From: a virus
IMG/VR virus record: IMGVR_UViG_3300045004_000238
Coordinates: 1 to 20,402 of that record
Length of the DNA stretch: 20,402 nt
Reading direction: 5' to 3' (one strand)
Numbering within the stretch: the stretch's first letter is position 1; every line of letters starts with the position of its first letter. Below are positions 1-20,402 of the stretch, piece by piece. A model generated the notes under the pieces. That model was not told the origin of the DNA, did not search any database, and worked only from the letters and a program-made list of their open reading frames with translations. A program made the position numbers and the translations under genes.

Positions 1-2460
1 GTGGAGATCGAGAACGAAACGCTGCGCGAGCGCATCGCGCGTCAATTGGAAATCGAAGCCGATAGCCGCGCCTTGGGCGCCTCTCGCTATCAGTCGTCGC
101 GTCCGTTGCCGTGGCGCACGGCGACGGCGAAACCTAATGAGGAAGCCGACCTTCCTCCGGGGCGACAACTCCTGAAGCTGGCTGTCGAGCCCACCGCCCA
201 AGCCATCCGCGAGTTTGTAGATCGCATCGCCAGCGGTGGAGCCGGAGCCAAGGCCGCCGCCTACGAAATCCTGTCGCAGATCGGCGCCGAAGAGGCCGCG
301 TACCTTACGGGCCGCGTGGTGGTGAACGCCGCCGCTTCCCGCCTGCCCCTCACCAAGACTGCCGTCGCCGTGGCTGACGCCCTGATCGACCATATCGAGA
401 TGGCCAATCTTCGAGAGCGCAATCGCTCCGGCTTCCATGGGCTGCTGAAATCCCAGAAGCGGAAGTCTTCGAGCCGCCGCCGTCGAGATCAGACGCGCAA
501 CATCATGGCGAAGGAAGGTGCGGCCATCGACGCGCCGCTCAAGCTCCGAGTTCAAACCGGAACCAAGGCCATCGAACTGTTCTGCGAGGCGACCGATCTC
601 TTTCGGATCGAACTTACCCCGCACCGCCGCCGTGCGCTGTACGTCATCCGCCCGACCGAAGCGGCTCAACATTGGTTCGACCGCCAGCACGCCCGTTGCG
701 AGCTTCTCGAACCCATCCACATGCCGATGGTGATCCGCCCCCGCCGGTGGCGCACCCCGTTCTGGGGCGGATATCTGACCAAACGCCCCGGCCTGCGTCT
801 CGTGAAGCAATGGAATCCGAACTACCACTCCGAGCTTCGCCACGTCGAAATGCCGGAGGTGTACGCGGCGGTGAACGCCGTGCAGGAGACGCCTTGGCGG
901 ATCAATTCCACCATCCTCGCGGTCATGCGCGAAGTCTGGGACGGCGGCGGATCGCTTGGCGGCCTGCCCCGTCGCGACGATCTCCCGCTCCCGCCTTTGC
1001 CCCACGACATGGACACCAACGAGGCGGCGAAGCGGGCATGGAAACGTGAAGCGGCCAACGTCCACGAAGCCAACGCCATGGCTTTGTCGAAACGCCTCGC
1101 CATGGCGCAACGGCTATGGATCGCCGCGAAGTTTGAGCCGGAAGAGGCGATCTACTTCCCGCACGAATTGGACTTCCGGGGCCGCATCTATCCGATCCCG
1201 ACTGGTGGCCCGCACCCGCAGGCCGACGACAGCGGCAAAGCCCTAATCGAATTCGCCTACGGCAAACCCATCGGAGACGCGGGCGCATGGTGGCTCGCCA
1301 TCCACATCGCCAACCTGTTCGGCGTCGATAAGGTCAGCTTCGCGGAGCGGTTCCAGTGGACGATGGACCACACCAACGCCCTGATCGACAGTGCCGACCA
1401 ACCCCTTGATGGCTCCCGTTTTTGGACGACCGCCGACAAACCTTGGCAGGCGTTGGCCGCCGCCATCGAATGGGCGGGCTACATGCGCGAAGGTCCCGAG
1501 TACGTCTCGCATGTTCCGGTCGCGCTCGACGGTTCGAACTCCGGCCTTCAGCACTTCAGCGCGATGCTTCGCGATCCGGTCGGCGCTCGCGCCGTCAACC
1601 TCACCCCATCTGATCGCCCCCAAGACATCTATGCCGAGGTGGCGGCCAAGGCTCAGGCTCTTGCCGACCAGTCTGCGGATGAGTCCGCCATCCCATGGCG
1701 CTACGGCGCGATGAATCGGAAGGTGGCGAAGCGTCCATGCATGACATTCTGCTACTCCGCGACCCGCTTCGGGATGCAGGACATGGTGTCTCAGACCCTC
1801 CGCGAGATCGACGCGGAGAACGCGGACTCTGGTAGACCGCCGCATCTGAAGGGCGCGGACAACTATGCCGCCGCCCATTGGGCTTCCTACGCCCTCTATG
1901 ACTCGATCTCACATACCGTCGTAGCTGCGTCCGCTGCCATGGCTTGGCTGCGTCAGGCGGCGAAGATCGCCTGTCAGGCGGGCCGCCCCATCTGGTGGAC
2001 CACGCCCTCTGGCCTGCCGGTCCTTCAGATGTACCGAGGCAAGTCAGAGCAGCGGGCCAAGGTCTATCTCAAAGGCCGCCGGGTGGAGCTTGTCATTACG
2101 CCCAACGACGGGAAGACCCTCAACACCATGGCGCAGGTGAACGGGATCGCGCCGAACTTCGTCCATAGTCTCGACGCATCGCACCTCATGTCAGTGGCGA
2201 ACCGCTGCTGGGAGCGTGGCGTCTACGCGCTCGCCGTAGTGCATGACTCATTCGGAACCCATGCGGCGGACGCGGCGACCCTCTCCATCGTCCTGCGGGA
2301 AACCTTCGTGGATCAGTACGAACCTGACGTGCTCGCCCGCTTCCGTGACGAACTCATCGACCAGCTTCCCCCCGAGTTCGCGGAGAAGCTCCCGCCGCTT
2401 CCCCCGTTCGGAGATTTCGACATCCGCTCGGTGCTCAACGCCGAGTACGTCTTCTCTTGA
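1..2460 (+). CDS. T7-like single-subunit DNA-directed RNA polymerase
   Basis: Phage RNA polymerase that would transcribe the middle and late genes from phage-specific promoters. The 819 codons align with T7 RNA polymerase nearly end to end. The palm motif DGSNSGLQHFSAMLRD carries catalytic Asp510 (T7 D537). The O-helix motif AKRPCMTFCYS has Lys577, Arg578 and Tyr585 (T7 K631, R632, Y639). The second catalytic Asp749 lies in VVHDSFGT (T7 H811-D812), and the C-terminus ends in the family's foot-like sequence. The ORF opens with GTG at base 1 and corresponds to roughly T7 residue 20-30, so a short N-terminal piece may lie outside the window; T7 has 883 residues and other Autographiviridae polymerases are shorter. 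A Ser follows Tyr585 where T7 has Gly640; I believe this is a known variant in the family. Identity is very secure; only the start is open. Confidence 0.96.
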   Translation: MEIENETLRERIARQLEIEADSRALGASRYQSSRPLPWRTATAKPNEEADLPPGRQLLKLAVEPTAQAIREFVDRIASGGAGAKAAAYEILSQIGAEEAAYLTGRVVVNAAASRLPLTKTAVAVADALIDHIEMANLRERNRSGFHGLLKSQKRKSSSRRRRDQTRNIMAKEGAAIDAPLKLRVQTGTKAIELFCEATDLFRIELTPHRRRALYVIRPTEAAQHWFDRQHARCELLEPIHMPMVIRPRRWRTPFWGGYLTKRPGLRLVKQWNPNYHSELRHVEMPEVYAAVNAVQETPWRINSTILAVMREVWDGGGSLGGLPRRDDLPLPPLPHDMDTNEAAKRAWKREAANVHEANAMALSKRLAMAQRLWIAAKFEPEEAIYFPHELDFRGRIYPIPTGGPHPQADDSGKALIEFAYGKPIGDAGAWWLAIHIANLFGVDKVSFAERFQWTMDHTNALIDSADQPLDGSRFWTTADKPWQALAAAIEWAGYMREGPEYVSHVPVALDGSNSGLQHFSAMLRDPVGARAVNLTPSDRPQDIYAEVAAKAQALADQSADESAIPWRYGAMNRKVAKRPCMTFCYSATRFGMQDMVSQTLREIDAENADSGRPPHLKGADNYAAAHWASYALYDSISHTVVAASAAMAWLRQAAKIACQAGRPIWWTTPSGLPVLQMYRGKSEQRAKVYLKGRRVELVITPNDGKTLNTMAQVNGIAPNFVHSLDASHLMSVANRCWERGVYALAVVHDSFGTHAADAATLSIVLRETFVDQYEPDVLARFRDELIDQLPPEFAEKLPPLPPFGDFDIRSVLNAEYVFS

Positions 2461-2482
2461 AATGTGGGCTAACGCACAAAAA

Positions 2483-2497
2483 GGCGCGGTATAGGAA
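2483..2497 (+). promoter_or_regulatory. Candidate promoter for the phage RNA polymerase
   Basis: Just after the polymerase stop codon is the sequence CGGTATAGGAA (2487-2497), preceded by GNCN. It resembles the initiating half of T7-family promoters (TATAGGG). The same 11 bases occur in the same orientation at 12591-12601, also outside a gene on that strand. It would drive the cluster that starts with the 96-residue protein and RusA. An 11-base match alone is not statistically rare in 20 kb, so position and T7-like character carry the call. Confidence 0.4.
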
Positions 2498-2540
2498 AGA
2501 GCGTCTCTTCGAACCCTATCCCCTCTTTCCTCCCCCATGA

Positions 2541-2831
2541 ATGCCACCCTTTTCCAGTGTGGCCGACCGCGTGAAGACCGCCTCGACGGTGGCCGTCCTG
2601 CGGGAACCGGCCTTCCTCCTTCTCGACCGTATCCAGCACGTTGATCCCGCCGATCAGGTGCGTGCGCTCGCCCTCACCTTCGCCGTCTACATGGAGGTGC
2701 TTGGGCTTGATCCCGCCGAGGAATACGAGCGCGCGAAGCGCATGCTCGCCGACGCTGAAGCCCCCTACACCTACCACGTCCAAGCCATCCGAGACTTCGT
2801 GGAGCAGGAGGTAGCTCGGAGACCCCGGTGA
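2541..2831 (+). CDS. Small conserved-type phage protein, function unknown
   Basis: This 96-residue, mostly helical, soluble protein has no recognised domain. Its centre is hydrophobic and helical, and it lies between the RNA polymerase and the RusA-like gene. The GTGA overlap with the next gene shows they are read as one unit. ATG at 2541 is the first start in frame; there is no clear Shine-Dalgarno site before it, so the true start could be further inside. The neighbourhood suggests a DNA-metabolism or transcription accessory role, but nothing in the sequence shows this. Confidence 0.7.
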   Translation: MPPFSSVADRVKTASTVAVLREPAFLLLDRIQHVDPADQVRALALTFAVYMEVLGLDPAEEYERAKRMLADAEAPYTYHVQAIRDFVEQEVARRPR

Positions 2832-3244
2832 CGGCGAAGGCCGCCGTCACCCTGTTCATCCCCTGCGATCCCATGCCGTCCCCTCGCCCCCGCGCGCGGG
2901 TCAACGGGCGGTTCGCGAACATCTACATGCCGCCCGAGTATGTGGACTGGAAGGATGAAGTCGCAGCGGCGATTCGCACGACCCTCGGTCCTGTCGATCC
3001 CGAACGGTTCGAAGCTCCTGTCGCGGTCACCGCAGAGTTCGTCTGCCTGTCGCCGAAGACCACGAAGCTCCCGTTCCCCAAGCCCGACTTGGACAACTAC
3101 CTCAAGAGCTTGCTCGACGCGGCCACCGAGTCCGCCACGCTGTGGAAGGACGACTGTCAGGTCAACGCCACCAAGGCGTCGAAACGCTGGGCCGCCGAAG
3201 GCGAGCGCACCGGCATCAAGCTCAAAATCACCTACGCCAACTGA
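2828..3244 (+). CDS. RusA-like Holliday junction resolvase
   Basis: Endonuclease of the RusA family, which cuts four-way DNA junctions; in a phage it would resolve branched DNA before packaging. The 138-residue protein has the family layout. The N-terminal strand LFIPCDPMPSPRPR is followed by the signature KPDLDNYLKSLLDA with Asp87 and Asp89, and then a DDCQV motif with Asp108/Asp109; these acidic residues are the expected metal ligands. The start is GTG at 2828, overlapping the preceding stop as GTGA. A later ATG would cut into the family N-terminus. T7 itself uses the unrelated gp3 endonuclease at about this point, so RusA looks like a functional replacement. Confidence 0.9.
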   Translation: MTAKAAVTLFIPCDPMPSPRPRARVNGRFANIYMPPEYVDWKDEVAAAIRTTLGPVDPERFEAPVAVTAEFVCLSPKTTKLPFPKPDLDNYLKSLLDAATESATLWKDDCQVNATKASKRWAAEGERTGIKLKITYAN

Positions 3245-3259
3245 CCGAAAAGGAGCCCC

Positions 3260-3742
3260 ATGGCCGTCGTCAAGAAACGCAACACCACCAAGTTCATCGT
3301 CATCCATTGCTCGGCGACCGGCCCCAAGGCTGACATTGGCTTCAAGGAAATCGACGGCTGGCATCGCGCCAAGGGCTGGGCCTCTTGCGGCTATCACCGC
3401 ATCATCCGCCGCAACGGCAAGGTGGAGAACGGGCGCCCGCTCGACGAGCCCGGCGCACATGTGGTCGGCTACAACGCCATCTCGGTCGGCGTCTGCATGG
3501 TCGGTGGCGTCGCCGCTGACGGAAAGACCCCCGAGAACAACTTCACCCCGGAACAGTTCGCCTCGCTGTCCAAGGTCGTTCGCGACCTAAAGGCCATGTA
3601 CCCCAGCGCCGAAGTGCTCGGTCACCGCGACCTGAGCCCGGACTTGAACCGGGACGGAAAGATCACCCCGAACGAATGGATGAAGGCTTGTCCGTCGTTC
3701 GACGCCCGCGCGTGGTGGGCCATCGCCGAGGCCACCCAATGA
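3260..3742 (+). CDS. N-acetylmuramoyl-L-alanine amidase (T7 lysozyme-like endolysin)
   Basis: Zinc amidase that cleaves the amide bond between N-acetylmuramic acid and L-alanine in peptidoglycan; in T7 the homologue (gp3.5) also binds and inhibits the phage RNA polymerase. The zinc ligands align: His16 in FIVIHCSAT, His122 in VLGHRDLSPD and Cys144 in KACPSFD. The catalytic partners Tyr45 (CGYHRII) and Lys142 are also present. At 160 residues it is close to T7 lysozyme (151), with an extra loop (residues 125-140) common in other phage amidases. AAAAGGAG precedes the ATG at good spacing. No signal peptide is visible, so export would depend on a holin. Confidence 0.96.
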   Translation: MAVVKKRNTTKFIVIHCSATGPKADIGFKEIDGWHRAKGWASCGYHRIIRRNGKVENGRPLDEPGAHVVGYNAISVGVCMVGGVAADGKTPENNFTPEQFASLSKVVRDLKAMYPSAEVLGHRDLSPDLNRDGKITPNEWMKACPSFDARAWWAIAEATQ

Positions 3743-3936
3743 AGCGGTCTCGCTATCCGAAAACGTGGCGTGACGAACGTGTCGTCACCAGCACCACGAT
3801 GCGCGGCGCCCTCGCCGACGCGATCCGCGCCAAGGCCGGACTCCCCGACGATCACAACATCGACCACCTCCTGCCCAACGCGGGGCTGGTGAAGGTCGCT
3901 CCTGTCAAAGCCCCAAGGGCTCGCCCCGCTCGATAG
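3739..3936 (+). CDS. Small basic phage protein, unknown
   Basis: A 65-residue protein starts at the ATG overlapping the amidase stop as ATGA; a longer reading from 3676 would overlap the amidase by over 60 bases and is less likely. The N-terminus (MKRSRYPKTWRDERV) and the Pro/Arg/Lys-rich C-terminus are basic and there is no membrane segment. It sits between the amidase and the holin-like gene, which could mean a lysis accessory role, but I recognise no domain. Its stop codon falls inside a hairpin. Confidence 0.65.
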   Translation: MKRSRYPKTWRDERVVTSTTMRGALADAIRAKAGLPDDHNIDHLLPNAGLVKVAPVKAPRARPAR

Positions 3937-3940
3937 CGGG
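3909..3940 (+). promoter_or_regulatory. Tandem hairpins ahead of the holin-like gene
   Basis: Two short perfect stems lie side by side: AGCCC-CAA-GGGCT (3909-3921) and CCCGCT-CGAT-AGCGGG (3925-3940). The second contains the TAG stop of the upstream gene, and no T-run follows. They may be RNA processing sites or translational insulators in the late transcript (T7 uses RNase III sites this way), or a weak terminator. Confidence 0.4.
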
Positions 3941-3956
3941 AGAAAGAACCATCACC

Positions 3957-4130
3957 ATGAATCCCGTAATCAAAGTCATCATCGGCTTCCTGAAGAACCG
4001 TGCCGTTTGGGTCGGCGCCGCCGCCATCGCAGCCGCAGTCGGCGTGAGCCTGAGCCCGGAACTGGTCGATACCATCGCGGCCGCTGGCGTCTCCATCGCC
4101 ACCGCTCTGGGTACGTTCTTCGGAGCCTGA
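3957..4130 (+). CDS. Small two-helix membrane protein, probable holin
   Basis: 57 residues, too short for many gene callers. After a basic amphipathic start (MNPVIKVIIGFLKNR) come two hydrophobic alanine-rich segments at about residues 16-32 and 38-56, joined by the short turn SLSPEL. This is the layout of a small class II-type holin that would release the amidase encoded two genes upstream. GGGAGAAAG lies about 10 bases before the ATG. The stop overlaps the next gene as TGATG. Holin is inferred from size, topology and place; no holin family signature is certain. Confidence 0.65.
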   Translation: MNPVIKVIIGFLKNRAVWVGAAAIAAAVGVSLSPELVDTIAAAGVSIATALGTFFGA

Positions 4131-4330
4131 TGCGTCACCAACCCAAGGCGATTTCCCAATCGCAGCCGTTCCCCCGGACGGCGGAGGCCTTCCTCGAATT
4201 CCTCGACAAGCAGTTCCCCGAGCCTCGCCCCCGCGCGAGCGATGACCTCGCCGACATCATGTTCAAGGCGGGTCAGCGGAGCGTCGTCCACATCGTTCGA
4301 GACGCCTTCAACAAATCCCACCCCGAATAA
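4130..4330 (+). CDS. Small phage protein, unknown
   Basis: 66 residues, with its start overlapping the holin-like stop (TGATG). It is hydrophilic; after a Gln/Pro-containing start it has a helical stretch around TAEAFLEFLDKQFPEP and a second one around RSVVHIVRDAFNK. There is no membrane segment. Genes of this size commonly lie just before the portal in Autographiviridae. I cannot assign a function. Confidence 0.65.
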   Translation: MRHQPKAISQSQPFPRTAEAFLEFLDKQFPEPRPRASDDLADIMFKAGQRSVVHIVRDAFNKSHPE

Positions 4331-4343
4331 GGAGGGCCTTCCG

Positions 4344-4616
4344 ATGTGCATCATCAAAAAGCCCAAGGTGGCGGCGGCCCCGGCTCCGAAGGACCCACCG
4401 GTCCTTCGCAACCCGTATCTCGACGGCGTTGACGCCTTGATCCGCTCTCGCTCCACCGGTCTCCGCTCGCTGCGCATCGACCGCGCAGGCGTGCAGGCGC
4501 CGAAAACTAACCCCACCCCGGCAAGCCTCACCGCGCCCGCAGCTTCGCAGCAGGGCGGAAGCGTGATGTCTGCCGCCGCTGAGCGCATCCTGACAGGGCT
4601 CGGCATCCAACGCTGA
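4344..4616 (+). CDS. Small virion/tail-assembly-type protein upstream of portal
   Basis: 90 residues with AAGGAGGG well placed before the ATG. The pattern matches the small protein found just ahead of the portal in many T7-like phages (position of T7 gp6.7/gp7.3). It has an MCII-K-KPK start, an Ala/Pro-rich linker, the conserved-looking motif STGLRSLRIDR near residue 40, then a low-complexity Pro/Ala/Thr tail. In T7 these are virion-associated proteins needed for infectivity. The start of the portal overlaps its stop (TGATG). The call rests on position and the SLRID motif. Confidence 0.6.
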   Translation: MCIIKKPKVAAAPAPKDPPVLRNPYLDGVDALIRSRSTGLRSLRIDRAGVQAPKTNPTPASLTAPAASQQGGSVMSAAAERILTGLGIQR

Positions 4617-5866
4617 TGGCGAACGCCGCAGCGCGCTATGCCGCGCTGACCTCTGCCCGATCCGCCTATCTGGATCAGGCGCGGGACGCTTCGCGTCTGA
4701 CGATCCCGAACGTCATCCCGCAGCACGACAATCAGAACGAAAGCACCCCGTTCGAACAGCCGTACCAATCGGTCGGCGCACGCGGCGTCGCCAGTCTGGC
4801 GGCCCGTACCCTTCTCGCGCTTTTCCCGCCGAACCTTCCGTTCTTCCGACTGACCGTCACCGAGAGCGTGGCCCAGCAGCTTGGGGAAGAGATGGGCGAC
4901 GTGAACGCGAAGCTCGCGTCGATCACCCAATCCGTTCATCGGCTGATGGAAGATTCCATGCTCCGGCCTCACGCGGTCGAAGCTCTGCGTCACCTCCTGA
5001 TCGCGGGCAACGTGCTGTTGTACCTGCCCGATGGTGACCGTCCGCCGCGCACCTTCCGTCTCGACCAGTACGTTGTTCGCCACGATCACACCGGCCTCTT
5101 CAACACGATCATCGTGCTCGAAAAGGTCATGCCCTCGGCTCTCCCCGAGGATGTGCGATCTGCCCTCGGGATCGAGATCAAGACCGGCCAAGAACAGCCT
5201 CTTGATGTCTACACCGTGGTGGAACGCCGAGACGAAAAGGTCGTCCACTGGCAGGAGATCAAGGATGTCGAAGTCCCCGGTTCGCGTGGCGAATCCCCTG
5301 CCGCATCTACCGGCTGGCTTCCGCTGCGCTGGCTCGTCATCCCCGGCTCAGACTATGGCCGCGCCCATGTGACCGAAGTCGTCGGCGACCTGATGTCGCT
5401 CGAAGACGCTACGAGTTCGATGATCAAGTTCGCGGCTATCGCGTCGCGGATCATCCACATGGTCGATCCGAACAGCCAGACCGACATTGACGAACTGGCC
5501 GAAGCCGAGAGCGGTGACTTCATCCACGGCAAACGCGAAGACGTTTCCACTCTGCAACTCGATAAGTATCAGGACTTCACCGTCCTCAACACGTTCGCCG
5601 AACGGGTCGAACGCCGTGTGGGCGACGCCTTCCTTCTAACTTCGACCGCTGTCCGAAACGCTGAGCGCGTGACCGCCGAAGAAATTCGGATGGTCGCCGA
5701 ACAACTTGAGACCACGCTGGGGGGGACGTACTCGATCCTGTCAGCCGAGCTTCAGCAGCCTATCGTCCGCCGGTATCTCTACCTCGCGGAGAAGAAGGGC
5801 GTGATCCCGGCGTTGCCGGACTCGATCTCACCGACCGTCGTGACGGGCTTCGACGCCCTTGGTCGA
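4616..5866 (+). pseudogene. Portal (head-tail connector) protein, C-terminus deleted
   Basis: The first 417 codons match T7 gp8-type portal proteins in order. They include the start ARYAALTSARSAYLDQARD, the SVGARGVASLAARTLLALFPP segment, the LLIAGNVLLYLPDG region, the clip/stem part, and VVTGFDALGR (T7 has a close equivalent followed by GQDL). Portals dock the terminase and form the DNA channel. Right after GFDALGR homology stops; about 115 residues are missing. The reading frame continues to 6151 in foreign sequence, adding 94 residues of Arg/Ser/Pro-rich frame-shifted fibre DNA. The crown/barrel end is gone, so a working 12-mer is unlikely. The start ATG overlaps the previous stop. Confidence 0.93.
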
Positions 5867-6513
5867 ATGGCGTTCCGCTTCGGGGACCGCAGGGCATCCA
5901 AGGCCCGCAGGGCAACGCCGGGGTGGACGGCACAGATGGGGCCGATGGTGCCGATGGAGTCGGCATCTCCACCGCTGCGATCTCGAACGGTTGGCTCACC
6001 CTTACGTACTCCAACTCAGCCATCGCCAACGTCGGCTACGTCGTTGGGCCACAGGGTGTCCAAGGCCCGCAGGGCAACGCTGGCGCTAACGGTACGAGCG
6101 TTACCTACGCCTCGAACCTCCCGACCCTGCTTGGAACCTCAAACGCCGTAGGCGTGGCGAACATCGCCGCACGAGAGGACCATGTTCACCAGTTCCCATT
6201 GGCCACGATCTCGAACACGATTGTCACGGCCAACTCCGCCCTGACCCTCAACGATCACGGGCGCGTGGTGGAATGGGACACCGGCAATAGTTCGCTGATC
6301 CTCCCGAACACCTTCCCAGCGGGCTTCAACTGCATTGTGGCCGTGGCCAACGCCACAGGGGTTCCGACCTTCGTTGCCAACACCGGTGCCACGATCCGTC
6401 AGGCCGATGGCTACACCAAAGCCCGCAAGCAATGGTCCGAAGTCAGTGTCCGGGTGCGCTCGAACGCCAACGGCGCGGCGGCCATCTACGTGCTGTCGGG
6501 GGACATGCAATGA
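5867..6513 (+). pseudogene. Tail fibre fragment with collagen-like repeats (5' end deleted)
   Basis: In the frame one base off the portal, homology to phage fibres begins at the junction: SNGVPLRGPQGIQGPQG, followed by DGTDGADGADGVG, a second GPQG block, then the fibre motif AREDHVHQFP and a beta-rich C-terminal half. Gly-X-Y repeats form trimeric stalks in phage fibres. There is no start codon with a ribosome site at the junction; the first ATG is at 5923, which would give a 196-residue product. The N-terminal adaptor that binds the tail is absent, so it could not be mounted on a T7-type tail. Its stop overlaps the next ATG (ATGA), which shows normal gene order downstream. Confidence 0.85.
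5884..6081 (+). repeat. Imperfect direct repeats encoding GPQGxQGPQGNA
   Basis: Two 36-base copies (5884-5919 and 6046-6081) differ at about seven positions. Both encode the collagen-like block GPQG-x-QGPQGNAG. They explain part of the fibre stalk. The first copy begins only about 18 bases after the portal break. Confidence 0.8.
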
Positions 6514-7583
6514 TCATACTCCCGACGATGCGAGGGGTGCTGAAACGCACACCTCCCGTGCTTGCTATGGCTACCTACGTAGCAAGCGCAGGATCGCTCA
6601 CATCTACGGTTCCCAAGCCAACCGGACTGGCTGCTGACGACTACATGTTCGTCTTCGTTGGCCACGGCGATAGCACGATCAGTGGCGGGTCTGGCGGCTG
6701 GGCGAAGTCCACAATCAGTTGGCCGACCTACGGCTACACCACCACAGTGCTGCATAAGCGCGTCACCGCGTCGGATGTGTCCGCCACGCTCACTGCCAGC
6801 GGCATAAGTTCGAGTGGCATCCTCTCGGCTGCTTGGCGCGGGCCGGTGTCTGCATCGGTCATGTCGTCGAACGGCGAGACCAGCGGCAACATCCTGCCGA
6901 TGTCCCGCTCGGCGAAGAACGCACTGAGTCTTGGACAGGTCGCCTTCTCATCTGATCGCGATCCGAGCGGAACGCCCGCCGCGCCGAGCGGATGGGTGAC
7001 CCGCTTCAACTACACCGGTCAGTATTTCCAATTGACGGTTGGCGATCGGATCGACGGAACCCAACCTTCCGCGTCCGGCACCGACACGTTCACCGGATAC
7101 ACCGCCACCTATCCGCAGGTTGGCTTCAACATCGAGCTTAGGGCGGACGATCCGACCGCCTTCCCCGCGATGTCGTCCAACAGTCCGGGCGGGGGGTACA
7201 TCGCATCGGCGAGTAATGAGACCTACGGCGGCGCCTATCTGGCGTTCGACCAGAATAACTCGACGTTCTGGGGGACCAACCCGGATGTGGGCTGGCTCCA
7301 AATCCAGTTCCCCGGTCCCCGCCGGATCACGAACTATCACGTTCGAAATCGTACTGGCTTCACGAACCACATCGGCACGGACTTCAACCTTCAGGGCTCG
7401 AATGACGGATCGTCGTGGACAACGCTCGATAGCCGCTCGGGCCAATCGTTCACGGACGGGGGCGAGAACTCCTACGCGATCTCAGCACCCGGATCGTACC
7501 GGTATTATCGCCTGAACACCTTGAGCAATCCCGCCAACAACACCGTCTTTGTTGTGGCCGGACTCCGCTTCACCTTCGCCTAA
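6510..7583 (+). CDS. Tail/receptor-binding protein with C-terminal discoidin (F5/8 type C) domain
   Basis: 357 residues from the ATG that overlaps the fibre stop (ATGA). Residues 1 to about 215 are Ser/Gly/Thr-rich beta-type sequence typical of phage adhesins. Residues of about 238-357 form a discoidin-like fold. Signs of it are AYLAFDQNNSTFW, GWLQIQFPGPRRITNYHV, the NLQGSNDGSSWTTLDS core and a YRYYRL strand near the end. Such domains bind sugars or lipids, here presumably host surface polysaccharide. There is no signal peptide. It is probably a virion adhesin expressed with the fibre; enzymatic activity is not indicated. Confidence 0.8.
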   Translation: MIILPTMRGVLKRTPPVLAMATYVASAGSLTSTVPKPTGLAADDYMFVFVGHGDSTISGGSGGWAKSTISWPTYGYTTTVLHKRVTASDVSATLTASGISSSGILSAAWRGPVSASVMSSNGETSGNILPMSRSAKNALSLGQVAFSSDRDPSGTPAAPSGWVTRFNYTGQYFQLTVGDRIDGTQPSASGTDTFTGYTATYPQVGFNIELRADDPTAFPAMSSNSPGGGYIASASNETYGGAYLAFDQNNSTFWGTNPDVGWLQIQFPGPRRITNYHVRNRTGFTNHIGTDFNLQGSNDGSSWTTLDSRSGQSFTDGGENSYAISAPGSYRYYRLNTLSNPANNTVFVVAGLRFTFA

Positions 7584-8528: not shown

Positions 8529-9569
8529 ATGGTACTTCATGACCTTCATCGCGAACGCATCGGCGACTACAAGCACGCCGAACGTCTTGGCCCGCTGGCT
8601 GGGCGGCGCGGGAAACACCTTGGGAAGCTGAAGCCGGTCGAAGACCTCCTTCACGCCAAGGCTCCCCTCCCCGCCAGCTTCGACGTGAGCCGTGGCCAGC
8701 CGCCCTACTTCAACGAGTTCAGCTACACCGAATGCCTCGGCTTGCTGATGGTGCAGCCGCAGTCATCCGAGGTCGCAGCGCGCATGGTGGCGTTCGCCGC
8801 CGAGGCGCCCAATCCGTTCGACGGGTTCGACGTGTCGGCCATGGTCGCGGCTTGCGACAAGTACACCTTGGACGACGGCGCCCCGGTCGATCTCGAATCC
8901 GTAGCTTTCCCGCCCGGAACGAACATCTTCGACCTCTGCGTGAGCCGCGAGGCCATGGACCGCGCCATGCATCGCGATCCCGGCTTGATGATCAAACTGC
9001 ATCCCCTCACGAAGCCGGGCCTGATCGAACGGCTCGGGGTCCTCTACGGCTATCACCGGCTGATCGACCCCAATGTCAGCGGATGGGCCTGCCTGAACCG
9101 GGCCTCGGCGATCTACACCACGACCTCTTCCGAGATGGGCCTGTATGGGTTCCTGACCGGCAAGCGCGTGGTCAACGTGACCGCCTACGGGTTCGAAGCG
9201 CAGGGTAGCTACAACTCGTTGTATCGCTTGCTCTGGGAGCTATCTCCCGAGGATGCGACCGCTACGCTGAAGCGGGTCCTGAACTCGCCGTACAGCGGTC
9301 TATTCCATCCTGACGACCCGAACCTCGAAGCCAAAATGGACCTCTATTTCGCGAAGGCCATGGAGCTTCGCGAGCAGTTCAAGCCTCTCATCTACGAGTA
9401 CGAGCCGCGCGACTACGCGCGCCTTGTGAACCACCAACTACGAAAGCGACCACACCATGCTCCGAGCCCTCATCAACGGGGACAACGAAGTCATCCAGTG
9501 GCCGGTATGGGACAAGGACATCCCCAACCTGTTCCCGGCCATCAGCTTCCCCGACCCTATCGAGGATGA
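8529..9569 (+). CDS. Putative GT-B-fold, capsule-synthesis-like (KpsC/KpsS-type) protein
   Basis: 346 residues from ATG 8529, four bases after the previous stop. Residues 154-160 (IKLHPLT) and 198-215 (TTTSSEMGLYGFLTGKR, followed by VVN) resemble the KxHP and T-S-x-x-x-G-x-x-x-x-G-K-x-VV motifs of the nucleotide-sugar half of capsule polysaccharide glycosyltransferases. In those enzymes these motifs bind the CMP/nucleotide donor. A following GFEAQGSYNSLYRLL fits the usual post-motif helix. No signal or membrane segment is seen. It could modify host surface glycans or a virion protein. The last ~37 codons overlap the next gene and read as low-quality Pro/His/Arg-rich sequence, so the natural C-terminus may have been altered by a frameshift. 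The fold call is from motif recognition only. Confidence 0.5.
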   Translation: MVLHDLHRERIGDYKHAERLGPLAGRRGKHLGKLKPVEDLLHAKAPLPASFDVSRGQPPYFNEFSYTECLGLLMVQPQSSEVAARMVAFAAEAPNPFDGFDVSAMVAACDKYTLDDGAPVDLESVAFPPGTNIFDLCVSREAMDRAMHRDPGLMIKLHPLTKPGLIERLGVLYGYHRLIDPNVSGWACLNRASAIYTTTSSEMGLYGFLTGKRVVNVTAYGFEAQGSYNSLYRLLWELSPEDATATLKRVLNSPYSGLFHPDDPNLEAKMDLYFAKAMELREQFKPLIYEYEPRDYARLVNHQLRKRPHHAPSPHQRGQRSHPVAGMGQGHPQPVPGHQLPRPYRG

Positions 9570-9747: not shown

Positions 9748-9977
9748 ACGACCCTACGACCGACAAGGACATCTTGATCCTTCTCGGCAAAATTGACGGC
9801 CAGCTTACCTCCCTGCTGGCCCGCTTCGACTCCCGCAACGCCGAGGACGACAAGAAGCACGCCCGCCACGAAGAACGCCTGTCCGCTCTGGAGAAGGCCA
9901 AGTGGATCATGATGGGCGCCAGCGTCGCCGCCGGTGGCGGGGCCGCCACCCTCTTCCAATTGTTCGGAGCGGGCTGA
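9744..9977 (+). CDS. Small membrane protein with coiled-coil N-terminus (XhlA/holin-accessory type)
   Basis: 77 residues starting in an ATGA overlap. Residues 5-50 form a charged helix or coiled coil (LLGKIDGQLTSLLARFD, then KKHARHEERLSALEK). Residues of about 53-76 are one hydrophobic Gly/Ala-rich membrane helix (WIMMGASVAAGGGAATLFQL). The plan is that of XhlA/DUF1515-type proteins that assist lysis. It lies directly before small terminase, where T7 carries its holin (gp17.5). So it may be the main holin, with the 57-residue protein at 3957 as a second one. Confidence 0.65.
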   Translation: MNDPTTDKDILILLGKIDGQLTSLLARFDSRNAEDDKKHARHEERLSALEKAKWIMMGASVAAGGGAATLFQLFGAG

Positions 9978-10270
9978 TGAGCAAGCGCGCCACCGAAGAG
10001 CGCCTGAGCTTTCTGCACGGCATGACCGCCGACGCGATCATCGACGAGCTTACCCGCGCTCAGGCACGGGCGGCGATGTACCCCGATGACCCGGCCTGCG
10101 CGGTGAACCCGCAGCTTCTCGACAAGGCCATGAAGCTCTTGTCCATCACCGGCATCACCGCGCCGCTCGCCGTTCCAAAGGCCGAGAACGTCAAGGCGAA
10201 GCTCGCCGCCCTCATGGACGGTGATGTGGACCTCGACGCCGAGGCTATGTCGGGCGACCGACACCACTAA
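9977..10270 (+). CDS. terS: Terminase small subunit (DNA maturase A)
   Basis: 97 residues starting in TGATGA at the previous stop. Size, position directly ahead of the large subunit and layout match T7 gp18: a helical N-terminal part (TEERLSFLHGMTADAIIDEL), the central DPACAVNPQLLDKAMKLLSITGI segment with the L-x-KA-x-KLL pattern, and an acidic C-terminus. In T7 the small subunit recognises concatemeric DNA and directs the large subunit. The call leans on gene order as well as weak sequence similarity. Confidence 0.8.
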   Translation: MSKRATEERLSFLHGMTADAIIDELTRAQARAAMYPDDPACAVNPQLLDKAMKLLSITGITAPLAVPKAENVKAKLAALMDGDVDLDAEAMSGDRHH

Positions 10271-10335: not shown

Positions 10336-12069
10336 TTGGAAACAGACAACCTCTCGTTCGCCGATCACCTGAAGGCGGACTTCCCCCTATTCGTCCGCTA
10401 CGTCTGGAAGCACGTCCTGATGCTTCCGCCGCCCACGCGGACGCAACTCGACATTGCCGACTATCTTGCCACCGGCCCGAACCGCCGGTTCATCCAAGCC
10501 TTCCGTGGCGTCGGCAAGTCGTTCCTGACCTGCGCCTACGTCGTATGGAAGCTCTGGAACAACCCTCAACTCAAAATCCTGATCGTCTCGGCGAACGAGG
10601 ACGGCGCCACCAACAACGCCAACCTCATCAAGCAGATCATCGACCATGAGGCCGGTGACGATCTCTGGCGTGACCTTCGCTCTCGCCGCGATCAGCGAAG
10701 CTCCACCCTCGCCTTCGACGTTGGCCCGGCCCTCCCCAACAAGCAGCCCAGCGTGTCGGTCACCGGCATCTTCGGCCAGCTTCCCGGCAACCGCGCCGAC
10801 ATCCTCATCCCCGACGATATCGAGAACGATAAGAATTCGGCGACGGAGACCCAGCGCGAACGGCTGATCAAGCAGACCACCGAGTTCGCGGCGATCATTA
10901 ACGGACGCCCGAACCCGCACGTCATCTACCTCGGCACGCCTCAGTGCGAAGAGTCGATCTACAAGGGGCTGCGGGATCGCGGATATGGCGTCCGCATCTG
11001 GCCCGTCCGCTATCCGCTGGTCGCCAAGCTGCACACCTATGACGGTGCGCTTGCGCCCATGCTGCGGGAAGACATCCTCGCCAACGGCGACCTCTGCAAA
11101 CCAATCGGATCTTCCCTCGGCGGCGCCCCCACCGATCCGCAACGGTTCGACGAACACTCGTTGCACCTGACCGAAGTGGACATGCGGGCGGCGGCCTTCA
11201 TGCTCCAGATGCAGTTGGACACCAGCCTGTCCGACGCCGAGCGGTATCCGCTCAAGACCTCCGACTTCATCGTCATGGATGTCGATCCGAAGATCGCCCC
11301 GGTCCAACTCGCGTGGGCCAGCGGCGGCGATCAGACGATCAAGGATTTGCAGAACGTCGGCTTCAATGGCGACCGGTTCCACCGGCCTATGTACGTCAGC
11401 ACCAAGGCGTTCGAGAATTTCACCGGCGCCGTCATGCACATCGACCCTTCCGGCAAAGGCAAGGACGAGACGGCCTACTGTGTGACGAAGTTCTTGAAGG
11501 GGATGGTCTACATCCGCCGTTGGGGCGGTCTCACCGGCGGCTATGACGCCGAGACTTTGGAACGGTTAGCGACCATCGCCGCCGAGGAACAGGTCAATGA
11601 GATCGTCGTGGAATCCAACTTTGGGGACGGCATGTTCGAGAAGTTGCTCGAACCCGTGCTGGCCCGGAAGCACCCTTGCCGGATCACCGGCGAGCGGGCC
11701 TCCGGTCAGAAGGAGAAGCGCGTCCTCAACATCCTCGAACCGGCCCTAAAGCAGCACCGGCTTGTCATAGACACAACCGTGGTCCGCGCCGATCTCGCCC
11801 ATCCCAACCGCGATCAGTCCGGGCTCTATCAGCTAACCCACCTCACCGAGGCTCGCGGGTCGCTGAAGCACGATGACCGGATCGACGTGCTGGCCGCGTC
11901 GGTCGGCCATTGGACCAAGTACCTGAACGCCGATGTGACCAAGGCCGAAGAGGCATGGAAGCGAAAGCAGGACGAAGAATTCGAGAAGCGGTTCTTCGCC
12001 GGGACGATCATCGGAGATCGTGCTGGGAAGAGTGGCCGCCGTCGCGCGGTCGGTCGCCGGATGAGGTGA
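10336..12069 (+). CDS. terL: Terminase large subunit (DNA maturase B), complete
   Basis: Packaging ATPase and nuclease, strongly similar to T7 gp19 along its whole length (577 versus about 586 residues). The Walker A-type motif is RGVGKS (57-62). Walker B is ADILIPDDIE with Asp160/Asp161, and RVIYLGTPQ-type coupling is present as HVIYLGTPQ. The RNase H-like nuclease has Asp370 in HIDPSGKGKDE, Asp431 in ESNFGDGMF and Asp514/Asp517 in KHDDRID. The start is TTG at 10336; an in-frame stop lies at 10291 with no ATG or GTG after it, and no clear ribosome site is seen, so the start may be damaged or unusual. Every catalytic residue is kept even though the element lacks a capsid. The last 62 bases overlap the minus-strand gene. 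Confidence 0.96.
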   Translation: METDNLSFADHLKADFPLFVRYVWKHVLMLPPPTRTQLDIADYLATGPNRRFIQAFRGVGKSFLTCAYVVWKLWNNPQLKILIVSANEDGATNNANLIKQIIDHEAGDDLWRDLRSRRDQRSSTLAFDVGPALPNKQPSVSVTGIFGQLPGNRADILIPDDIENDKNSATETQRERLIKQTTEFAAIINGRPNPHVIYLGTPQCEESIYKGLRDRGYGVRIWPVRYPLVAKLHTYDGALAPMLREDILANGDLCKPIGSSLGGAPTDPQRFDEHSLHLTEVDMRAAAFMLQMQLDTSLSDAERYPLKTSDFIVMDVDPKIAPVQLAWASGGDQTIKDLQNVGFNGDRFHRPMYVSTKAFENFTGAVMHIDPSGKGKDETAYCVTKFLKGMVYIRRWGGLTGGYDAETLERLATIAAEEQVNEIVVESNFGDGMFEKLLEPVLARKHPCRITGERASGQKEKRVLNILEPALKQHRLVIDTTVVRADLAHPNRDQSGLYQLTHLTEARGSLKHDDRIDVLAASVGHWTKYLNADVTKAEEAWKRKQDEEFEKRFFAGTIIGDRAGKSGRRRAVGRRMR

Positions 12070-12956: not shown

Positions 12957-13724
12957 ATGTCCGACCCGAGCGCCATCCCGCCCCTTCCCGAAGGGCAAGG
13001 CCTGCCCGACAAAACCGCGCTGGCGATCTACCATGCGCTGCTGAAGCGGTACTTCGAACTCACCCTTGAGAGCATGGAAAAGGACATGGCCATCGCGTCG
13101 GATTTCGACGATGGGCCATCACTTGAATCTCTGACCGCCCGAGCGAAATGGTGGAAGAAGATCGACCTGATCTTCGAGACCGACAAATTGTTCGACCGGC
13201 GTTACTCCGGGCCGAAGGGCGAACTCCAACTCGTTCAAGAGATTTTCGGCGAACAGCTTGGGATCGACCCACTCCTTCTGGCCGATGATATCGAGAAGCG
13301 GTTGGATTGGTACAAGCGACGGATCGCAGCCGACTACGCCCGGACGGTGAAGGAGCGGATCGACAACCACAGCGTCGCGTCCCCCATCGAGCAAATCTTC
13401 CTCATGGAGTGGCACTTCCTGCGCGTTGAAGAACGGTTCGGCGTAGTCCTCACCCCACAGCTTGAGGTCACCGCCGAAGACCGCACCTACCGCATCGACT
13501 TCGGCGTGACCAAAGCCGGTAAGGCGGCGAAGTTGGGCATCGAGCTTGATGGCCACGCTTTCCACGAGCGAACCCCATCGCAGGCGGCCAAGGATAAGCA
13601 GCGCGAGCGCGCACTGATCCGGCAAGGCTTCACGATCCTCCGCTTCACAGGAACGGAGATGGTGAGGAACCCGCGCCAATGCCTGACAGAGGTTGTCGCA
13701 GTGATCGAGCAGAACGTCGCGTAG
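12957..13724 (+). CDS. PD-(D/E)XK nuclease, DUF559/Vsr-like
   Basis: 255 residues. The N-terminal 130 residues are helical and unassigned. The C-terminal domain begins with SPIEQIFLMEWHFL and has the nuclease core TYRIDFGV (Asp181), LGIELDGHAFHER (Glu196, Asp198, His200). It ends in the typical strand-helix GFTILRFTGTEMVRNPRQC. This order is that of DUF559/Vsr-like endonuclease folds. The role could be a nickase, a homing or restriction activity, or host DNA damage; there is no methyltransferase partner nearby. The start ATG has only a weak ribosome site; no better one is in frame. It is a stand-alone gene between the small palindrome and the oriT-like hairpins. Confidence 0.75.
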   Translation: MSDPSAIPPLPEGQGLPDKTALAIYHALLKRYFELTLESMEKDMAIASDFDDGPSLESLTARAKWWKKIDLIFETDKLFDRRYSGPKGELQLVQEIFGEQLGIDPLLLADDIEKRLDWYKRRIAADYARTVKERIDNHSVASPIEQIFLMEWHFLRVEERFGVVLTPQLEVTAEDRTYRIDFGVTKAGKAAKLGIELDGHAFHERTPSQAAKDKQRERALIRQGFTILRFTGTEMVRNPRQCLTEVVAVIEQNVA

Positions 13725-13739
13725 GCGTTCAGATCGTTT

Positions 13740-13840
13740 TGGGGTCGCATTTCTGAAACCCCATAGTTAGCGCGAAGCGCGGGCCAGACCCCCCGTGGGG
13801 GTGGCTTGCGAGCCGGGGCGGGGGCGCCCTCCCCCAGACC
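13740..13840 (+). other. Hairpin cluster, candidate mobilisation origin (oriT-like)
   Basis: A run of stems follows the nuclease gene: TGGGGT/ACCCCA (13740-13763), GCGC-GAA-GCGC (13770-13780), ACCCCC-CGT-GGGGGT (13788-13802) and GGCTTGCGAGCC (13803-13814), then GCGCCCTCCCCC (13824-13835). The last piece matches the core after the nick in RSF1010/R1162-type (MOBQ) origins, TGCGCCCTCCC as I recall it, and like them it follows an inverted repeat. No relaxase gene is present, so transfer would need one in trans. The first stem alone may be the terminator of the nuclease gene. The oriT call is an inference. Confidence 0.3.
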
Positions 13841-13902
13841 ATGCCGCCCGCTATGCGATGGCCATGAGCCTCGCGTTCGATTCTGACAATTGATTCAATG
13901 GG

Positions 13903-13936
13903 TTGACTTGACATTGAGCGCGTTGAGTCGGAATGT
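13903..13936 (+). promoter_or_regulatory. Host-type promoter of the serine recombinase gene
   Basis: TTGACT and overlapping TTGACA (13903-13913) are followed after 17 bases by GAATGT (13931-13936), about 30 bases before the ATG. A CACACA-containing sequence (13941-13947) lies at the presumed transcription start and resembles motifs around the ArdC promoter. Confidence 0.5.
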
Positions 13937-13964
13937 TTGTTCACACACAAGGGGGCCTTAACCC

Positions 13965-14618
13965 ATGAACAAACCTACTCGCTTCGTTTCGTACATCAGG
14001 GTTTCAACCGTGCGCCAAGGCGAGTCCGGCCTTGGGCTGGAGGCTCAACGGGAAGCCGTGCGCGGATACCTGAACGGGCGGGAGCTTCTCGCCGAATTCC
14101 CCGAGATTGAGACCGGCAAAGGATCGAACGCGCTGGCCAAGCGGCCCAAGCTGCGAGAGGCGTTGGCCTATGCCAAAGCCAAGCGCGCGACCTTGGTTAT
14201 CGCAAAGCTCGATAGGCTGGCGAGGAACGTGCATTTCATCTCGGGCCTAATGGAAGCCGGAGTCGATTTCGTCGCCGTCGATATGCCGGAGGCGAACCGC
14301 CTAACCCTTCACGTCATGGCCGCATTCGCCGAGCATGAGCGCGAGACCATCGCCCAAAGGACACGGGAAGCTATGGCCGCCGCAAAGGCGCGAGGAACGG
14401 TCATGGGGGCCAATGGCAAAGCTTTGGCCGCCAAGCATAGGCAAGAGGCTAAAGCCCGTCTGGCGCCGCTCTCTGGCCGCCTATTGGCCATGCGCGCAGA
14501 GGGCCTGACCGTCCGCAGGATCGCCGAGACGCTCAACGCGGAAGGCGTCGCCTCGCCGGGCGGCGGACGATGGCATGTGGCCAGTGTGCATCGGGCCTTG
14601 GGACGCCTCGCCGCTTGA
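13965..14618 (+). CDS. Small serine recombinase (resolvase/invertase family)
   Basis: 217 residues. The N-terminal catalytic domain has YIRVSTVRQGESGLGLEAQ with nucleophile Ser14 and Arg12. It continues with the KLDRLARN motif (Arg84, Arg87), the AEHERETIAQRTREA helix and a C-terminal helix-turn-helix (RIAETLNAEGVASPGGG onward). These enzymes resolve multimers or invert/excise DNA at short sites. It lacks the large C-terminal domains of phage-type large serine integrases, so plasmid-type resolution is more likely than prophage integration, though I cannot exclude an integration role. AAGGGGGCC lies ahead of the ATG. Its own promoter suggests it is expressed independently of the phage polymerase. 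Confidence 0.9.
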   Translation: MNKPTRFVSYIRVSTVRQGESGLGLEAQREAVRGYLNGRELLAEFPEIETGKGSNALAKRPKLREALAYAKAKRATLVIAKLDRLARNVHFISGLMEAGVDFVAVDMPEANRLTLHVMAAFAEHERETIAQRTREAMAAAKARGTVMGANGKALAAKHRQEAKARLAPLSGRLLAMRAEGLTVRRIAETLNAEGVASPGGGRWHVASVHRALGRLAA

Positions 14619-14650
14619 GCCCGTACATTTGTCGTCCCCTGCATTTTTTG

Positions 14651-14700
14651 CGTGTTATCACACATTGTGTGTTGACAACCTTTCGCCCAACCCATTAGAC
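14651..14700 (+). promoter_or_regulatory. Promoter and CACACA-type operator of the ArdC gene
   Basis: TTGACA at 14672-14677 and TTAGAC 17 bases later form a host-type promoter. The -35 box is overlapped on its left by the palindromic ACACA-TTG-TGTGT (14660-14672). Further CACACA tracts lie at 14740-14746 and over the ATG at 14758-14766. The arrangement suggests a repressor bound over the promoter and leader. Confidence 0.45.
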
Positions 14701-14765
14701 GTTCGCCCCATCGGAAGCGACCAACAAATACATTGGCTAACACACACAACGATAAGGCACACACA

Positions 14766-16055
14766 ATGCGGAACCGCGCTGACATCTATCAGGAAGTCAC
14801 GGACTCCATCATTCGCCAGCTTGAGAATGGCGTTCGCCCGTGGGCGAAGTCGTGGCAAGCCGCCGGGCCGGGCTTCGTCCTGCCCGTCCGGGCCAGCGGC
14901 GAACGGTATCGCGGGATCAACGTCCTGTTGCTCTGGGGCGCCGCCGAGGAAAAGGGCTTTTCCTCGCCGCAATGGTTCACCTTCAAGCAAGCACAGGAGA
15001 TGGGCGCGAGCGTTCGCAAGGGGGAGAAGGCGGCGAAGGTCGTCTATTTCAACCGGGTTTCGCGTGAGGTCGAAACCGACAACGGCGACCGCGAGGAAGT
15101 CGAAATCCCCTTCCTAAAAGCCTATGCCGTGTTCAATGCGGAGCAGATCGACGGCTTGCCGGACACGTACCAGCGCAAGCCGCTCCCGCGCGAAGATGCG
15201 CCCTCGCCTATCCCCAACGCCGAGGATTTCTTCGCCCGCGTTGGCGTGGAAATCCGCCACGGTGGCGACCGGGCCTATTGCTCGCGGGCGACTGGCCATA
15301 TCCAAATGCCGCACCTCGCCGACTTCGTAGACGCCGAGTCCTATTACGCCACGCTGGCGCATGAGACCGTGCATTGGTCAGGGCACGAAGGCCGCCTTGA
15401 TCGGGAGTTCGGGAAGCGGTTCGGCGATCAGGCGTATGCGGCGGAAGAACTGGTCGCGGAGATCGGCGCGGCGTTCCTCGCCGCTGATCTCGGCCTGTAC
15501 GTCGAGCCTCGCGAGGATCACACCTCCTATCTGGACTCATGGCTGAAGGTCCTGAAGGCCGACAAGCGGGCGATCTTCACGGCGGCAAGCAAGGCCCAAG
15601 CGGCGGCTGACTTCATCCATGAGAGCGCCAAGGAAGCCGCTCCGCGCCCTGTTGTCGCCAATATGTGTGTTAGCGCACAAATCCCCGTGGAAGCCGCCAG
15701 CGGCCCGGAAAATGGCCCGGACGGCGATCCTGATCCGCAACCGCCGAAAGGAGGGCGCAAGCCCTCCCGAAAGGCGACATCAAACTATCCGCCAGTCGTC
15801 AGAATGCATGCCCTGTATCGTGGTGTGGCTGGCGCCCGGCTCCGCTCGATTGAGCGTAAACTTTTGACCGCTGGGATCACTGATCTCCATCGCGTTCGCA
15901 CTTCGGCTGACCACCTGATAATCGACCCAAGGACCACCATGCCCGATCTCGATTTTGATGGTCTGCCCCACGCCAACCTGCCCCTTGGGCGCCCCGCCGA
16001 CCTGAGGGCTTTCGAAGATGAGGATGGTGGTTCCCACATCCATTTGACGGAATAG
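14766..16055 (+). CDS. ardC: ArdC-type antirestriction protein with unusual C-terminal extension
   Basis: The first ~285 residues match ArdC proteins. The N-terminal ssDNA-binding domain starts RADIYQEVTDSIIRQLENG, followed by the zincin-type domain with HETVHWSGH (His199, Glu200, His203), the AEELVAEIGAAFLAADLG helix and the usual end DKRAIFTAASKAQAAADFIH. ArdC proteins protect incoming DNA from restriction and are typical of leading regions of conjugative plasmids. The ATG at 14766 has AAGG upstream; a TTG 11 codons earlier is less likely. The reading frame goes on for ~145 residues of Pro/Arg-rich and then unrelated sequence. The last 276 bases are antisense to a convincing minus-strand gene, so this tail may be accidental read-through after loss of the native stop. 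Confidence 0.88.
   Translation: MRNRADIYQEVTDSIIRQLENGVRPWAKSWQAAGPGFVLPVRASGERYRGINVLLLWGAAEEKGFSSPQWFTFKQAQEMGASVRKGEKAAKVVYFNRVSREVETDNGDREEVEIPFLKAYAVFNAEQIDGLPDTYQRKPLPREDAPSPIPNAEDFFARVGVEIRHGGDRAYCSRATGHIQMPHLADFVDAESYYATLAHETVHWSGHEGRLDREFGKRFGDQAYAAEELVAEIGAAFLAADLGLYVEPREDHTSYLDSWLKVLKADKRAIFTAASKAQAAADFIHESAKEAAPRPVVANMCVSAQIPVEAASGPENGPDGDPDPQPPKGGRKPSRKATSNYPPVVRMHALYRGVAGARLRSIERKLLTAGITDLHRVRTSADHLIIDPRTTMPDLDFDGLPHANLPLGRPADLRAFEDEDGGSHIHLTE
15750..15767 (-). terminator. Hairpin terminator of the minus-strand gene
   Basis: GGAGGGC-GCAA-GCCCTCC is a 7-bp stem with a four-base loop. Read on the minus strand it follows the stop at 15780 by 12 bases and is followed by TTTCGG. On the plus strand it lies inside the ArdC reading frame, which supports the view that ArdC proper ends earlier. 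Confidence 0.55.
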
Positions 16056-16076: not shown

Positions 16077-16595
16077 GCTTGCCTCCCCGATTTAATCGTC
16101 GTGGTTGTAAGTCATGGGCACGCCTCGCACCAGTCGCAACGGCGCTTTCACTCCCGTTCTAAATAGCTGGCCACGGCTCGCCCCAACCGGGTTGGATTGA
16201 CCGCTCACCTCAATCGCGCGGGCCGTGGCGCCGTGGCGCGGCCCGATCCAAATTCCTCTTCACTTTCGCCGCCCCAAATTTTCTTTCCGGGGTTCGACAA
16301 CGACGTTCCCGAGCAGGAGGTTTTCGAGCGAAGCGAGGAAGCCGACCACTTACACCTTCGAGTTCGAGTCAAGCGAAGCGAGGCTTGAGATCACTTATTG
16401 CCGGGCTTTGCAGAGCAAAGCGTGGCGCCCTTATAAAGTATGCCACGAGCAAAACCCGACTTCGATCTGACCTCGACTTGAATTCGACTTAATTCATTGT
16501 TTTTCCTCGAAAAACGAATTCGTCGAAGACAACTTATTCCGCGCCGAAGGCGTGGCGCCCTTATAAGTATTCTTTCTAAGATATTGGGTATTGCC
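16077..16595. other. Repeat-rich, AT-richer intergenic region, possible replication origin
   Basis: No credible gene is seen in these ~520 bases. The stretch is rich in short repeats: GCGAAGCGAGG units near 16330 and 16375, CGACTT units at 16458-16490, a palindrome GCTTTG-CAGAG-CAAAGC before the first 15-bp element, and AATTC/GAATT inverted pairs around 16490-16530. Part of it is AT-rich. Such a pattern fits a plasmid origin or a partition/resolution site, but no Rep gene is visible to support an origin. Confidence 0.4.
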
Positions 16596-16613
16596 TTATA
16601 TAAGGGCGCCACG
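16421..16613. repeat. Three copies of CGTGGCGCCCTTATA (two direct, one inverted)
   Basis: Copies at 16421-16435 and 16551-16565 are direct and share further bases (TAA and GTAT, with one extra A in the first). The third, at 16599-16613, is inverted, making a perfect 15-bp inverted repeat with the second around a 33-base AT-rich spacer. Each direct copy is preceded by a small hairpin. The third copy encodes the last residues (RGALI and stop) of the minus-strand gene. Confidence 0.85.
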
Positions 16614-17300
16614 GTTTCCACGCGGCGGATAAACCCACCCGAACAACTCGGGCGAACTGGATTGCCGGGACTGCGCCACGGCTCGCCCGGCGAGCGGGCG
16701 GCCATTCGCAGCACGGGTGTCGAAATCGGTGATGATGTGCAGCATGGTCATGCCGGGCACGTAGATGGCGACTTCGGCGGGACGGCCAGCGATCAGCTTC
16801 ATGCCGACGTAGTGACCGGCGAAATGGAAGGACGGGCCATTCGGCTCCTTCACCTTGAGGATGCCGTAGACATCGTAGTCGAAGTTATCGACGAACAGGT
16901 TGAACTCGTCCCGCCCTGCCTCGGGGAAGGGATGGACGTTGCGGGCACGGCAAATCTGCCGAAGCTCGCTTTTGATTTTGTTCTTCGGCCACAGGAAGGC
17001 TGACGCCTGCCAAGCAGGCTCGTTGAAATCGATCTTCTCGCCCTCGAAGACCTTCAGCGTTGCCGCCCATCGGTTGCCGACGTTCTTGGTGAGGTGGTTG
17101 TCATAGATCGTGAGTTGCTGCGTCGAGAGGGTGCCCCACTCGGGGCAGGGCTCTGCGAAAAACGGCTGAGGCGCCTCGGCGTAGATCGTGGCGCAGGCTT
17201 TGCCGATCTCTGGATAGGCGAGCCTCATCCGGGCGCATTGGGCAGGATCGGACGCGATGGTGTCGAACAGCCGGGCCACGGCATCAAGGTCGATTGTCAT
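16596..17300 (-). CDS. Unknown protein, second gene of the minus-strand operon
   Basis: 234 residues. The start overlaps the upstream gene's stop (ATGA) and has GGAAGG before it. It is a soluble mixed alpha/beta protein: a helical start (MTIDLDAVARLFDTIASDP), a Trp/Lys-rich middle (PAWQASAFLWPKNKIKSELR) and a beta-rich half with YDVYGILKVKEPNGPSFHF and IYVPGMTMLHIITDFD. I recognise no family. The last ~37 residues are Arg/Ser/Pro-rich and end inside the 15-bp repeat element, so the natural C-terminus may have been replaced by a rearrangement. Translational coupling says it works with the 106-residue partner. Confidence 0.65.
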   Translation of the reverse strand: MTIDLDAVARLFDTIASDPAQCARMRLAYPEIGKACATIYAEAPQPFFAEPCPEWGTLSTQQLTIYDNHLTKNVGNRWAATLKVFEGEKIDFNEPAWQASAFLWPKNKIKSELRQICRARNVHPFPEAGRDEFNLFVDNFDYDVYGILKVKEPNGPSFHFAGHYVGMKLIAGRPAEVAIYVPGMTMLHIITDFDTRAANGRPLAGRAVAQSRQSSSPELFGWVYPPRGNRGALI

Positions 17301-20000: not shown

Positions 20001-20402
20001 CTACACGCCGTCCCCTCTGTACTCTCGCTGGAAGAGGGCATGCGCTCGCTTCACCACCATCAGCAACGTGCAGATGAAGTGGACATAGATCACTATAGAT
20101 ATCGCTGGTGCCCACCCGTCGAGCCACTGCATCACAAAAAAGACGATAAAAATTACCAGTGCTACGACACACACGAACGTCAGATAAGATATGTTCGAGT
20201 TAATCTCGCCCAATAGCTTCTTACGCACTCGGACGACATCCTCCTGTCGGGCAGCGAGGCGTTTGTCCGATGGCGCATCCCATTTCCGTTGATAGATGGA
20301 AAAGACGGCGACCTGTAAATTCAGGAGAAGCGCAATGAAGATGCCGAAAAAGGTGATCGATACATTGTAGAAATCCGCCTTCACCTGAAAGCATAGCCAC
20401 AT
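20001..20402 (-). CDS. Membrane protein, unknown, probably truncated by the window edge
   Basis: 133 codons visible. Hydrophobic segments are at about 15-36 (ITFFGIFIALLLNLQVAVF), 73-94 (LTFVCVVALVIFIVFFVMQW) and 98-117 (ISIVIYVHFICTLLMVV). They are separated by a charged cytoplasmic-type helix (DKRLAARQEDVVRVRKKLL). An ATG coincides with the very last base, so the true start may lie outside. Codon use is less GC-biased than in the phage genes, which hints at a different origin. Similar three-helix proteins with a charged linker occur as orphan genes near mobile elements; no function is assigned. Confidence 0.65.
   Translation of the reverse strand: MWLCFQVKADFYNVSITFFGIFIALLLNLQVAVFSIYQRKWDAPSDKRLAARQEDVVRVRKKLLGEINSNISYLTFVCVVALVIFIVFFVMQWLDGWAPAISIVIYVHFICTLLMVVKRAHALFQREYRGDGV

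Follow-up and report, generated by a model that had tools for sequence, protein, structure and literature searches.

A T7-like prophage remnant from Caulobacteraceae with portal and tail fibre genes apparently fused by a large deletion

A provirus related to Caulobacter phage S2B

The virus record IMGVR_UViG_3300045004_000238 (G000; 20,402 bases, analysed over its whole length and referred to here as the window) is likely to represent a defective S2B-like prophage located in comF of a Caulobacteraceae host, in which one deletion of about 13–17 kb between the portal gene and a tail fibre gene abolished self-sufficient particle production. One breakpoint would follow codon 417 within the portal gene and the other would fall in the collagen-like stretch of the fibre gene, and illegitimate recombination between the two genes within the prophage most likely fused them out of frame in a single event. 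Loss of the scaffold, capsid, tail-tube and core genes would leave the element alone unable to form heads and virions, whereas the transcription, lysis and packaging genes at the flanks are still readable.

The window, a 20.4-kb provirus record, derives from a temperate T7-like phage with Caulobacter phage S2B (accession no. MN857473.1; Autographiviridae) as a close relative. The gene order from the RNA polymerase (RNAP) gene to the gene for the large terminase subunit (TerL) was the same as in S2B, with 64, 58, and 63% identity for RNAP, portal, and TerL, respectively. Unlike the window record, S2B contains a full head and tail block, genes for DNA polymerase, primase, and exonuclease, and an integrase gene adjoining the RNAP gene. 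In S2B, which is the best annotated relative, the RNAP gene is followed by DUF2815 (ssb), RusA, lysozyme, primase, DNA polymerase, and exonuclease genes, and then by the portal, scaffold, capsid, tail tube, core protein, and tail fibre genes, terS and terL. T7-like prophages are known and widespread, and lysogeny in temperate T7-like phages has been demonstrated only recently (PMC10134795).

Both ends of the window coincide with gene starts (the RNAP start at position 1 and a minus-strand ATG at position 20402), which suggests a trimmed provirus. A second, independent IMG/VR contig of 7086 bp (L002; IMGVR_UViG_3300045005_000014) was identical to positions 1–5853 of the window and added 1233 bases on the left. 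The first approximately 787 bases of this contig showed up to 83% identity to Caulobacteraceae chromosomes and, from reading frame and content, probably contain grxC and part of comF. On this side, the prophage starts within the host comF (L002 780–790), with the host comF DNA lying approximately 446 bp to the left of the RNAP gene. This host DNA on the left flank indicates that the prophage is chromosomal and its host a member of the Caulobacteraceae. Neither L002 nor the window showed a recognisable tyrosine integrase, and the right end of the prophage is cut. The features of the window are as follows:

1–2460, + strand: phage RNA polymerase (T7-like), intact (phrog_414, E 3.8e-234; 64% identity to S2B gp054)
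2541–2831, + strand: S2B gp052 homolog (57% identity)
2828–3244, + strand: RusA Holliday junction resolvase (PF05866, E 4.7e-21; 48% to S2B gp048)
3260–3742, + strand: amidase endolysin (phrog_822, E 6.2e-63; 56% to S2B gp047)
3957–4130, + strand: small membrane protein, holin-like only in appearance (sequence reading, no family match)
4128–4330, + strand: S2B gp031 homolog (45% identity over 4169–4321)
4332–4616, + strand: S2B gp030 homolog (70% identity over 4401–4502)
4616–5866, + strand: portal gene, residues 1–417 of about 503, lacking the C-terminus (phrog_449, E 1.7e-136; alignment with relatives)
5867–5883, + strand: deletion junction (putative), 17 nt belonging to neither side
5884–6513, + strand: collagen-like tail fibre, C-terminal part, lacking the N-terminus (phrog_5073, E 1.3e-10; 68% to the C-terminus of a 793-aa protein of L008)
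6504–7583, + strand: tail protein downstream of the fibre (phrog_17517, E 4.4e-26)
9974–10270, + strand: terminase small subunit (PF11123, phrog_891; 39% to S2B gp005)
10336–12069, + strand: terminase large subunit, intact (phrog_38, E 2.7e-109; 63% to S2B)
14733–16055, + strand: ArdC-like antirestriction protein (PF08401, PF18818; 54–56% to the copies in G108, G109, and G064)

The gene at 8541–9569, adjoining the fibre genes, matched phrog_26179 and by eye resembles a polysaccharide-modifying enzyme. A DUF559/MTES_1575-type endonuclease, a small serine recombinase and the ArdC-like protein form one block at 12957–16055, and an inverted repeat whose 27-nt arms (85% complementary) are separated by 33 nt is located at 16539–16625.

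The portal–fibre junction and the missing block

The conserved portal motif GFDALGR ends at position 5866, which confirmed the end of portal homology given in the original prediction; the portals of the complete relatives S2B, jiawei, and D5 continue for 80–90 residues past this motif. The predicted start of collagen-like fibre sequence one reading frame over, within 0–18 bases, was borne out as well: the collagen register (GPQGIQGPQGNAG) runs from position 5884 in frame 1, the portal is read in frame 2, and the gap between them is 17 nt. The fibre fragment represents only the final approximately 200 residues of a protein of a kind that in other phages has a full length of 632–793 aa. As a feature of the contig, the junction is real and far beyond chance.

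An exact 47-mer spanning the junction gave no match in IMG/VR. The longest string crossing 5866|5867 that recurs was 12 nt in a comparison covering the window and its relatives, with the missing block itself outside the comparison; within this scope, no common k-mer capable of producing a false join was seen. A 6-bp hairpin at 5849–5867 was considered as a hotspot for deletion or coverage and was not significant (such hairpins occur approximately four times per kb). A phage promoter motif common to both sides of the junction was searched for and not found.

In the window, terS lies 4.1 kb from portal residue 417, compared to 17.4–20.7 kb in eight reference genomes, and this shortfall corresponds to a net 13.3–16.6 kb missing. 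As predicted, the window contained no scaffold, capsid, tail-tube or core genes and no fibre N-terminus, and it is the portal C-terminus, scaffold, capsid, two tail-tube genes, core genes and fibre genes that occupy this interval in relatives. IMG/VR relatives together with Caulobacter sp. D5 gave 31 loci that extend 1.8 kb or more beyond the portal; scaffold and/or capsid genes were present in 30 of these, the 31st (L168) being itself deleted there. The flanking lysis and terminase genes were open as described, amidase and TerL being open reading frames, and so was the RNAP gene. The single-subunit phage RNAP and the portal and terminase genes in conserved order place the window with the T7-like phages; however, the scaffold, capsid and tail-tube genes expected after the portal were absent, as were the DNA polymerase and primase/helicase genes. 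Lacking the scaffold, capsid and tail-tube genes, the window is a remnant and not a complete S2B-like member of Autographiviridae, and the loss or truncation of essential virion genes is that of a defective prophage.

The two sides of the junction showed matching divergence, the RNAP, portal, and TerL identities being 67, 59, and 62% to D5 and 64, 58, and 63% to S2B, and the ardC-like gene was found downstream of terL as in intact relatives. Together, these matches make one genome the simplest source of both sides, and the deletion was probably present in the cell. A single deletion of the head block, as originally proposed, is the best account, the flanks being of one S2B-like phage type, although other differences from S2B exist (see next section). 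That the loss was recent is suggested, though weakly and no more than that, by the open flanking frames. A search for intact relatives with which to place the breakpoints yielded intact loci, but none closer than approximately 60% portal identity; microhomology is not placeable because no close intact sister was found. Overall, the earlier interpretation was partly supported.

Replication genes and alternative origins of the junction

Besides the head block, the ssb, primase/helicase, DNA polymerase and exonuclease genes were absent from the window, unlike in S2B. A clade of 23 S2B-like sequences (L103–L107, L137, L138, L141–L143, L147, L149, L151–L156, L158, L160–L163) likewise showed no recognisable ssb, primase, DNA polymerase or exonuclease genes in the RNAP–portal interval, and such virion genes as were visible in these sequences were intact. 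This clade includes intact Caulobacteraceae prophages in G064, G108, G109, and G118, which resemble the window in having no DNA polymerase or primase gene between RNAP and portal, and three of which (G064, G108, and G109) also carry an ArdC-like gene downstream of TerL. They differ from the window in that the portal, scaffold, capsid and tail genes are full and RusA and amidase are absent at this place. The portal tree placed the window next to the clade with weak support (83/56), and the retention of RusA and amidase makes the window look like an intermediate. Since an entire sister clade whose head genes are intact is likewise without the replication genes, their absence is probably lineage history. 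A second deletion, of the replication block, was set aside as the less probable reading: the sister clade also lacks the block, and the genes at 2541–4616 are closely tiled or overlapping and show no scar. The claim that the loss was specific to the head block thus stands in so far as the portal–fibre join is the only visible scar, but has to be qualified by the additional absence of the replication genes.

The principal competing explanation is an assembly chimera, in which the cell carries an intact prophage and portal and fibre ends were brought together by the assembler or by a chimeric read; we regard this as unlikely. L002 ends at window position 5853, only 13 nt short of the end of portal homology (a chance of approximately 0.4% if contig ends are random), and the join is followed by collagen repeats, with 22 nt repeated exactly at 5897 and 6059; both observations speak for this reading. 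However, a 17-nt gap separates the end of portal homology from the collagen repeat and no longer common string spans the breakpoint, so that the repeat does not account for the end of the portal. Besides, a fork in the assembly graph separating an intact form from an otherwise identical deleted one should end a contig at or after 5866 and not at 5853, and the same kind of deletion was found in the relatives L168 and G102. Because a fork is expected at or after 5866, the end of L002 is a clean signature of neither a misassembly nor a true deletion; this contig ends before the junction and speaks neither for nor against the join, and its end so close by is a coincidence without explanation.

A break of L002 near the junction could also reflect two continuations in a mixed population, in which intact and deleted prophage forms coexist and the record represents the deleted form. 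This is quite improbable, as an exact 35-mer ending at 5853 was found only in L002, with no contig showing an intact continuation, and the closest fibre sequences in the collection reached only 68–73%. These best matches, found in a search for near-identical fibre contigs as an intact partner, came from L007–L009, in which other window genes were not seen in the stretch compared; a fibre search of 390 Caulobacteraceae genomes gave only C-terminal matches of 39–41%. That the element is a functional satellite, streamlined by a single deletion, retaining its own RNAP, terminase and lysis genes and packaged in the heads of a helper T7-like phage, is scarcely credible: these genes are open although the head genes are gone, but portal and fibre were cut mid-gene and out of frame instead of being cleanly lost, and the architecture of the window was common to none of the relatives, which thus gave no conserved capsid-less gene set in independent genomes.

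Probable prophage decay in Caulobacteraceae and relatives

Two relatives resemble the window in having a large internal deletion that fuses normally distant virion genes, with different and independent breakpoints. In the isolate prophage L168 (IMGVR 2627853674_000002; 4703–5752; record G392), portal residue 299 (approximately) is joined to a tail-tube gene, with a loss of approximately 2.9 kb; terL and ardC are inverted in this record. What is left in the Caulobacteraceae genome G102 (L193, 14032–17465; on a 723-kb contig) is a partial tail tube gene, gp023 and a partial gp022 that is fused to the C-terminal two thirds of TerL, a 13.5-kb deletion compared to G109. Cryptic or 'grounded' prophages, as described in a review (PMC6379469), are like the window chromosomal phage remnants that have lost virion genes; compared to cryptic prophages in general, the window belongs to the temperate T7-like group.

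With the window read as a defective prophage, the event is ordinary prophage decay, and defective prophages are already a known kind of element. Only mobilisation by a helper phage, if true, would raise the importance of the element. The case calls for caution, as here an entry catalogued as a virus contains a remnant probably unable to make virions. Together with L168 and G102, it adds to the evidence for decay via large internal deletions of virion genes among temperate T7-like prophages of Caulobacteraceae and relatives.
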